Shown here: positions 29,977-55,363 of the stretch, piece by piece | Layout of the letters: every line of letters starts with the position of its first letter | How positions within the stretch are numbered: position 1 is the first letter of the stretch | Notes under the pieces: generated by a model | Told to the model about the DNA's origin: nothing | Seen by the model: only the letters and a program-made list of their open reading frames with translations | The model's database searches: none | Position numbers and translations under genes: made by a program | Origin: Candidatus Saccharimonadota bacterium | GTDB lineage: Bacteria > Patescibacteriota > Saccharimonadia > Saccharimonadales > Saccharimonadaceae | Direction: 5' to 3' | NCBI GenBank assembly: GCA_017437945.1 | Contig: JAFRWP010000014.1 | Coordinates: 1 to 64,000 of the forward strand | DNA: 64,000 bases

Positions 29977-30053
29977 GGGTCGCTAGCTCAGTTGGCTAGA
30001 GCGCCTCGTTTACACCGAGGAGGTCGGGGGTTCGAGCCCCTCGCGACCCACCA
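29977..30053 (+). tRNA. tRNA-Val(TAC)
   Basis: Full cloverleaf: acceptor GGGTCGC/GCGACCC, D arm GCTC...GAGC, anticodon loop TTTACAC (anticodon TAC), T arm GGGGG-TTCGAGC-CCCT, encoded CCA. A TGCTATTAT extended -10 lies at 29952-29960. Confidence 0.96.
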
Positions 30054-30096
30054 AGTATAAAAAGATGACCTTCATGGTCATATTTTTATACTTGTT
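30053..30096 (+). terminator. First terminator after tRNA-Val
   Basis: AAGTATAAAAAgATGACC with GGTCATaTTTTTATACTT; long stem ending in an A/T tract. Confidence 0.75.
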
Positions 30097-30103
30097 TGAA
30101 TTA

Positions 30104-30237
30104 TCCGCGGGGGCGAGAACCCGCAGGGTTCGTGCGAGCAAGGAGCCGAGGCAAGCAAAAATGCTTGCATTTTTATTTGCGAGGCGACGCCGCGAATCAA
30201 GGCTCCGCCAGGAGCCGCTGCCCCTCGCGACCCACCA
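30104..30237 (+). repeat. tRNA-tail element A (follows tRNA-Val)
   Basis: About 134 bp. It begins with an inverted, partly changed copy of the tRNA-Val 3' arm (30105-30122), then GAACCC-GCA-GGGTTC, then a core shared with element B (GGAGCCGAG, AAGCAAAAATGCTTGC, TTTTTATTTG, GAGGCGACGCC). It ends with an exact 18-nt copy of the tRNA 3' end including CCA (30220-30237 equals 30036-30053). A second terminator follows. It could be a tiny integrated element or a transcribed RNA decoy. Confidence 0.7.
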
Positions 30238-33742: not shown

Positions 33743-33818
33743 GGGGTGTTAGCTCAGTTGGTAGAGCGATTGGTTCGCAATCACTAGGTCAGGAGTTCGA
33801 ATCTCCTACACTCCACCA
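33743..33818 (+). tRNA. tRNA-Ala(CGC)
   Basis: Acceptor GGGGTGT/ACACTCC has the G3-U70 pair that marks tRNA-Ala. D arm GCTC...GAGC, anticodon loop TTCGCAA (CGC), T arm AGGAG-TTCGAAT-CTCCT, encoded CCA. The anticodon stem ATTGG/TCACT has one mismatch, and GATTG/CAATC offers a competing fold. Extended -10 TGCTATAAT at 33722-33730. Confidence 0.88.
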
Positions 33819-33825
33819 TCTTAAG

Positions 33826-33853
33826 AAAAAGTGGCCTTCTGGCCAATTTTTGT
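33826..33853 (+). terminator. First terminator after tRNA-Ala
   Basis: AAAAAGTGGCC-TTCT-GGCCAATTTTTG hairpin. Confidence 0.8.
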
Positions 33854-33859
33854 TGAGCT

Positions 33860-33997
33860 AGTGTAGGAGATGAGAACTCAAAGAGTTCGGTCGCAGCAGG
33901 AGCCGAGACAAGCAAAAATGCTTGCATTTTTATTTGTGAGGCGACGCCCTGCGATGCTCTGAGCGAAAGCGAAGAATATATCTCCTACACTCCACCA
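33860..33997 (+). repeat. tRNA-tail element B (follows tRNA-Ala)
   Basis: About 138 bp and built like element A. AGTGTAGGAGAT (33860-33871) is the reverse complement of the tRNA-Ala 3' arm, then GAG, then GAACTC-AAA-GAGTTCG, then the shared core (GGAGCCGAG, AAGCAAAAATGCTTGC, TTTTTATTTG, GAGGCGACGCC), and finally an exact 18-nt copy of the tRNA 3' end with CCA (33980-33997 equals 33801-33818). The tails are specific to each tRNA while the core is shared. Confidence 0.7.
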
Positions 33998-34004
33998 TTA
34001 CCAT

Positions 34005-34033
34005 AAAAAAGACCATCGGGTCTCTTTTTTATA
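34005..34033. terminator. Bidirectional terminator after element B
   Basis: AAAAAAGACC-ATCG-GGTCTCTTTTTT works on both strands (element B, and the 35255-34035 gene). Confidence 0.75.
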
Positions 34034-55287: not shown

Positions 55288-55363
55288 TGGTGACCCGGGT
55301 GCGAGTCGAACGCACAACCTTCTCCTTAGGACGGAGCCGCTCTATCCATTGAGCTACCGGGCC
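55288..55363 (-). tRNA. tRNA-Arg(CCT)
   Basis: Acceptor GGCCCGG/CCGGGTC, D arm GCTC...GAGC, anticodon loop GTCCTAA (CCT), T arm GTGCG-TTCGACT-CGCAC, encoded CCA. Confidence 0.93.

Follow-up and report, generated by a model that had tools for sequence, protein, structure and literature searches.

Genomic islands and phages of the Islander type insert at the 3′ ends of tRNA genes and leave an intact tRNA together with a displaced copy of its 3′ end; integron attC sites are single folded strands that rebuild a duplex recombination site with extrahelical parts; and REP/REPIN repeats (RAYT, TnpA-REP) are short, tagged, non-autonomous palindromes that lie between genes and carry conserved stem mismatches. 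To our knowledge, known mobile elements either bring their own ends or duplicate a few target bases, and we know of no type of mobile DNA that is built to copy its target in both orientations as its ends. Here we analyze a repeated unit, 160-190 bases long across its family, that combines traits of all three systems. Two copies of it, one behind tRNA-Val(tac) and one behind tRNA-Ala(cgc), lie in the first 64,000 nucleotides of contig JAFRWP010000014.1 (hereafter the window), which belongs to a Saccharibacteria genome of 952 kb in 14 contigs, of which 931 kb were scanned (assembly GCA_017437945.1). We lean toward the view that the unit is a non-autonomous palindromic mobile element that inserts behind the CCA of tRNA genes and obtains host-templated ends by foldback synthesis. 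A literature search found such elements nowhere described, which is weak evidence given that subscription papers lie mostly outside its coverage.

Read from the tRNA outward, the unit opens with a terminator-like hairpin. This is followed by the left arm, in which the T-arm and acceptor strand (tRNA positions ~70-51) stand as their reverse complement, and, after a turn of 3 nt, by a forward copy of positions 51-57 (5′ side of the T-loop). Next come the core, 87-90 nt long, and 18 nt that repeat positions 59-76 with the CCA; a second terminator closes the series. In both window units the core takes the place of A58 exactly, that is, it stands between tRNA positions 57 and 59, and the unit ends 184 nt (Val) and 179 nt (Ala) behind the CCA of its tRNA. 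The parts are listed below, P1 to P4 being the paired segments of the predicted fold and R1 a model of P3 only.

33743..33818, forward strand: host tRNA-Ala(cgc), intact, CCA encoded (ARAGORN, Rfam)
33819..33859, forward strand: Ala unit spacer and first, terminator-like hairpin (stem 33832-33845, then a T run; terminator scan), placed inside the inserted unit by empty-site comparison
33860..33879, forward strand: Ala unit left inverted arm (5′ strands of P1 and P2), antisense of tRNA-Ala 51-70 with GA replacing the complement of 57-58
33883..33889, forward strand: GAGTTCG, copy of tRNA-Ala 51-57 (3′ strand of P2 plus N57)
33890..33979, forward strand: Ala unit core, with the long hairpin P3 (R1 match 33889-33956, 86 bits) and the small P4 (R1, P3 covariation, folds)
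33980..33997, forward strand: 18-nt sense copy of tRNA-Ala 59-76 including CCA (18/18 identity)
34003..34032, forward strand: second terminator at the Ala locus, probably native (stem 34010-34023; terminator scan)
29977..30053, forward strand: host tRNA-Val(tac) of the sister element (ARAGORN, Rfam)
30054..30104, forward strand: Val unit spacer and first, terminator-like hairpin (terminator scan)
30105..30122, forward strand: Val unit left inverted arm (5′ strands of P1 and P2)
30126..30132, forward strand: GGGTTCG, copy of tRNA-Val 51-57
30133..30219, forward strand: Val unit core, with P3 (R1 match 30132-30199) and the P4 hairpin 30201-30216 (R1, folds)
30220..30237, forward strand: 18-nt sense copy of tRNA-Val 59-76 including CCA (18/18 identity)

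An initial annotation of this DNA had noticed core words shared by the two elements, all of which are present where it placed them, and had recognized that the end of the Ala unit, ATCTCCTACACTCCACCA at 33980-33997, copies tRNA-Ala (33801-33818) in 18 of 18 positions; the arrangement at tRNA-Val is the same, with 30220-30237 equal to 30036-30053 throughout. The inverted arm that it reported, AGTGTAGGAGAT at 33860-33871, is indeed a 12/12 reverse complement of the tRNA-Ala end, but the extent given was too short, as the arm reaches ~33879 and its complementarity to the tRNA extends over 20 nt at 90%, through the T-loop. This arm departs from the tRNA solely opposite positions 57 and 58, where most units have GA. 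The third tRNA copy, GAGTTCG at 33883-33889, had been overlooked. Shuffle counts and a genome-wide scan together rule out a chance origin. Two core patterns each occur twice in the 64 kb, where 0.07 and 0.01 occurrences are expected from shuffles, and additional copies of tRNA terminal 18-mers (at most 2 mismatches, 931 kb) are confined to the strand of their own tRNA and to the region downstream of it, with two exceptions, namely matches among related tRNAs and one 2-mismatch match to tRNA-Leu(gag) at C8:36991.

In a wider sample, which consists entirely of metagenome-assembled genomes, one per species, the ends of the unit very probably follow the tRNA behind which it stands. Among 38 units, the end equals that of the adjacent tRNA at 18/18 positions in 27, agreement averages 16.8 positions with the own tRNA and 12.0 with the best-fitting other one, and in no case does a foreign tRNA fit better. 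Oddities of the T-loop are reproduced as well (TTCA of tRNA-Leu(caa), TTTCG of one tRNA-Gly(ccc)), as are the species variants of tRNA-Val, each matched by the unit beside it, and the fit to the host recurs in other genera. When loci were chosen by R1 with tRNAs disregarded, most proved to be tRNAs (Arg, Glu, Ile, Lys and Asp among them) whose units have matching ends, the minority being contig ends or sites away from tRNAs. Hence the constant core with host-matched ends proposed in the initial annotation is borne out, arms following the adjacent tRNA in every genome examined, and the covariation that it wished to see checked holds between different tRNAs, between the variants that one tRNA has in different species, and even for the T-loop oddities.

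R1 detects the family in 113 genomes out of 393 in the order, with as many as 13 copies in one genome; these represent 17 genera, and 112 of the 113 belong to a single family. The genome containing the window has units at Val(tac), Ala(cgc), Leu(caa), Leu(taa), Gly(tcc), Tyr(gta) and Val(cac), and a phylum-wide sample yielded two further units in distant Patescibacteria families, beside tRNA-Gly and tRNA-Arg, both with 18/18 ends. A core-pattern match was also seen in a record named Fibrobacter succinogenes (L102, a rumen metagenome-assembled genome), possibly a mis-binned Saccharibacteria contig. Islands are classically recognized by a distal copy of the tRNA 3′ end (PMC4383910), and the units could conceivably be scars of integrated phages or islands in which this copy is the attR of a tyrosine integrase and the rest has eroded. 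We disfavor this and consider it highly improbable, as one unit of 160-190 bp with a covarying fold and an exact 57/59 junction occurs at more than 10 tRNAs in 17 genera, the inverted copy is present, and no integrase lies nearby. The core pattern had no match in the 2.9 million viral contigs of IMG/VR.

Comparison with relatives defines the borders of the unit. Empty tRNA loci, for which the initial annotation had suggested looking, exist among them, and the Val and Ala units of the window are each present in only about one third of the genus genomes assayed. In genome G035 the CCA of tRNA-Val is followed by TTTGTATTAGAATCGCCC, and its relative G034 has the same sequence behind the distal CCA; the unit therefore sits exactly between CCA and the native terminator. 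The picture at tRNA-Ala is similar, G034 showing a later deletion at the border. In G010, the tRNA-Val locus has kept the first terminator and the 18-nt copy and has lost the arm and the core, and this shortened unit fits a deletion at a 2-nt microhomology. Tandem units are spaced ~182-184 bp apart. The initial annotation would have been abandoned had close relatives carried both tRNAs without any trace and had the two cores proved unrelated; tRNAs without a trace do exist, and the cores are clearly related.

Several cores have evidently changed host, and recently. In G409, the units at Arg(ccg) and Gln(ctg) have cores agreeing at 91/92 positions and identical right up to position 58, while their ends agree at only 8/19. 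The P3 of these two units also occurs beside Val(tac) in the same genome, and this nested Val(tac) core recurs on two contig ends, one terminating as the tRNA-Val end and the other as a tRNA-Gln-like end. Leu(taa), which has no unit in 11 of 13 relatives, is occupied in G000 and G023 by different cores: that of G000 is the Val core (0.97 over P3, 78/87 over the full core), and that of G023 is Ala-like. At the T/C position that varies in the tRNA end, each unit agrees with its local tRNA, the T of G000 being private. The two halves of the G000 unit lie on separate contig ends, which share an overlap of more than 130 identical bases, and are presumed by us to be joined. Similarly, the cores at Glu(ctc) of G336 and Val(tac) of G366 agree at 85/91 positions. 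It is thus established that the shared, mobile part of the unit is a core of ~85-92 nt (P3 and P4), the remainder being host sequence in forward and inverted form. A moving core would leave its ends behind. The earlier proposal that ends are acquired from the tRNA holds in so far as re-housed cores bear the ends of the new host; that they are copied at insertion, and not corrected soon afterward, is what we infer. Simple site-specific recombination was rightly judged insufficient, for the element would need a matching end beforehand, and the inverted copy and the 51-57 copy would go unexplained. Target-site duplication alone was likewise rejected, as it accounts for 59-76 and not for the inverted arm or 51-57.

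The units have a pronounced predicted fold. Both window units are predicted to form a four-way junction, with energies of -62 and -55 kcal/mol and z-scores of -3.1 and -5.5 for the two, in which P1-P2 pairs the inverted copy with both forward copies while P3 and P4 protrude at 57/59. Because the inverted copy is paired with the two forward copies, the folded strand would rebuild the duplex of the tRNA gene from ~51 to 70, and the folded unit is thus predicted to mimic the tRNA gene and not the tRNA fold. Over 38 units, the eight inner P1 pairs comprise 255 Watson-Crick, 10 G-U and 39 mismatched cases (304 total), and pairing falls to 43% once the arm of one unit is combined with that of a unit at another tRNA. 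In P3, 92.3% of the cells are paired, 88 two-sided changes are counted versus 24 ± 4 in shuffled data, and pairing is destroyed by sliding the partner; two tandem G.A steps show little or no variation, and CUUG is the usual apical loop, including in stems whose sequences are wholly different. A strand test on P3a was balanced (13 G-U versus 12 A-C), such that the plus strand is favored as the folded strand solely by the tandem GA pairs and the CUUG loops.

Such features would also be expected of a structured non-coding RNA gene that uses the tRNA promoter through read-through and whose transcript is cleaved after the CCA. Its arms would co-evolve for tRNA mimicry or pairing, while duplication spreads its copies and gene conversion homogenizes them. 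The strong covariation of P3 and the z-scores speak for this explanation, as do the CUUG loop and the invariant tandem GA columns, which suit the plus strand only, and the CCA preserved in intact units. We nevertheless consider it unlikely. Terminator-like hairpins stand both before and behind the unit, which has no evident promoter of its own; the acceptor/CCA part has been lost in many units; the distribution is patchy, a given unit being absent from most relatives; P1 rebuilds a gene duplex rather than a tRNA fold; and compensatory changes can be produced by template switching too (PMC8794818). Over the window, only tRNA, tmRNA and RNase P reached the threshold of the Rfam models, and a group I/II intron, a T-box and a GOLLD-like RNA were discarded as candidates for want of an Rfam match.

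Rebuilding of a duplex by a folded strand also invites comparison with integrons, where attC rebuilds an attI-like duplex just as the unit would rebuild 51-70 of the tRNA gene. If the unit were an integron-like folded site, its hairpin would restore the attachment duplex of the tRNA 3′ end and exchange by a tyrosine recombinase would force the arms to match. The break at 57/59 falls in the T-loop, a place at which crossover by tRNA integrases can occur (PMC1762012), and the single-gene inserts at tRNA-Val(cac) and others and the existence of tandem units also speak for this view. This reading is, in our estimate, quite improbable, because 12 of 15 unit-rich genomes (G421 and G405 among them) have one Xer-like enzyme as their only tyrosine recombinase, as does the genome containing the window, most units are geneless, and the acquisition of new arms by a core is left unexplained.

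A third possibility is that the unit is a repeat of the REP/REPIN type moved by a Y1 (RAYT/TnpA-like) transposase, the inverted arm being an oversized guide. P3 often starts with GTAGGAG and its stem mismatches are conserved, as in REPs (PMC8266576); P3-type hairpins occur away from tRNAs in Patescibacteria too, and IS200/IS605 guides can retarget insertion (PMC8266576). Yet a motif scan (not a profile search) of 931 of the 952 kb of the genome containing the window found no Y1 transposase, the GTAG, common as it is at the start of P3, is not conserved, and known guides are tetranucleotides that are not copied from the target. We rate this explanation as very unlikely.

We therefore return to foldback synthesis. 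According to this model, DNA synthesis would fold back (switch templates) on hairpins and copy the tRNA-derived parts from the target. The expected product of two such switches has the order end - hairpin - inverted end - turn - end, from which foldback synthesis is inferred, and the core would be captured at position 58. Creation and repair of such stems by template switching are documented (PMC8794818). Later on, recombination between the 18-bp direct repeats may keep the copies alike or delete them precisely. The enzyme, if there is one, may be supplied in trans, or the host replication and repair machinery may suffice. A coreless form with this succession of end, hairpin, inverted end, turn and end lies behind tRNA-Lys(ttt) (L060), and at tRNA-Thr(tgt) (L056) there is a short version, in which a P3-type hairpin separates end from inverted end; in G044 this version is in tandem at 85 bp. 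In other Patescibacteria, the 8-mer that flanks a P3-type hairpin at a tRNA 5′ end or another site is present a third time in 7 of 18 cases, where 0.6 are expected. It is conceivable that the target itself writes the ends, such that the core captures a forward and an inverted target copy by foldback at insertion and is re-addressed each time, an extension of the model that we put forward only tentatively. Should the same succession prove to hold outside tRNA genes in other Patescibacteria, target-written ends would be a general mode of insertion.

With regard to enzymes, RVT_1 is absent from 9 of the 15 unit-rich genomes (G000, G003, G034, G421, G405 and four others). Given this, the sole Xer-like recombinase in most of them and the lack of a Y1 motif in the genome containing the window, neither a private integrase nor a private reverse transcriptase is required. 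Retroviral-style tRNA priming was an attractive candidate, since m1A58 blocks copying and the 18-nt copy stops at position 59; it was rejected in view of the unit-rich genomes without RVT_1, and the shortened Val unit of G010, which had seemed to support it, fits a microhomology deletion.

Several considerations weigh against the mobile-element model. No insertion event has been observed, the sample has one genome per species, and no enzyme has been found for the movement of the unit. The CUUG loops and tandem G.A pairs would equally suit a functional RNA. In addition, the nearest-neighbor core is found at the same tRNA in other genomes in 35 of 56 cases, versus 6.5 in label shuffles; jumps between tRNAs are thus not frequent, and most cores are old lineages tied to one tRNA that jump occasionally. 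Finally, gene conversion between pre-existing units could mimic core transfer in some of the jumps.

Other sequences in the same neighborhoods were recorded alongside the units. P3-type hairpins stand at tRNA 5′ ends in other Patescibacteria, with arms that copy the tRNA 5′ end (L312, L313, L317, L319), and P3-type cores without a tRNA, with common flanking motifs such as GGGCGCGAGC, were seen in genomes of genus g2 (L300, L301, L307). The window itself has a P3-type hairpin at 27-95 (38 bits to R1) with no tRNA nearby. A separate family consists of single-gene cassettes directly behind the tRNA CCA, each with a different gene, a conserved left border TTCAGGTTATAAAATAATTTTCAACTATTT and a right border CTGTTAAAACCTGGCTTA..AGCCCCACCA:

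L026, 621-1404: single-gene cassette
L244, 102-1428: single-gene cassette
L283, 1527 onward, reverse strand: single-gene cassette
L178, to 2294: single-gene cassette
L247, to 2409: single-gene cassette

At tRNA-Val(cac) of the genome containing the window (L118, 773-2654, contig C10), a gene for a 415-aa zinc-ribbon protein (PF14311), by eye also Vsr-like, puts 1.6 kb between tRNA and unit. Palindromic repeats of other types lie behind tRNA-Arg(cct), Arg(gcg), Leu(gag), Gln(ttg) and Gln(ctg), of which those at the two Gln genes combine another core with the 57/59 layout:

Window 55288-55363 and downstream, minus strand: other palindromic repeat
L068, L093, L077 and L088: other palindromic repeats

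The unit family accounts for much of the sequence behind Saccharibacteria tRNA genes. If the model is true, long structured ends regenerated from each host gene would represent a new mode of spreading and re-targeting in the tiny genomes of episymbionts, and the units would be natural test cases for the reshaping of genomes by hairpins, replication and template switching.

Taken together, the unit fails a tested defining feature of tRNA islands, integron attC sites and REPs alike. It has in common with Islander-type islands and phages its place at the tRNA 3′ end, the intact tRNA and the displaced copy; unlike them, it is geneless, has no integrase, measures 160-190 bp and carries the inverted and 51-57 copies, and one core serves many tRNAs with its ends changed. 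As with attC, one folded strand would rebuild a duplex site with extrahelical parts, but what is copied is a tRNA gene, the fold is a four-way junction, there is no IntI and usually no cassette gene, cargo between tRNA and unit being confined to few loci with differing borders. The unit is as short, palindromic and intergenic as REP/REPIN repeats and differs from them in its placement at tRNA ends, its target-copied ends and the lack of a transposase in the genome containing the window. Casposon or Cas1 integration at tRNA genes produces a long target-site duplication of the tRNA 3′ end, a route that would cover the 18-nt direct copy alone and neither the inverted arm nor 51-57. With template-switch mutations at quasi-palindromes the unit shares inverted copies made or repaired beside hairpins; these are, however, a mutational process and not a mobile family, and they do not supply a conserved core. 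Like IS200/IS605 guides and IS110 bridge RNAs, the unit holds complementarity to its target within the element itself; unlike both, and with no transposase detected (by Y1 motif scan only), it holds both strands of ~20 nt of that target, paired with each other.
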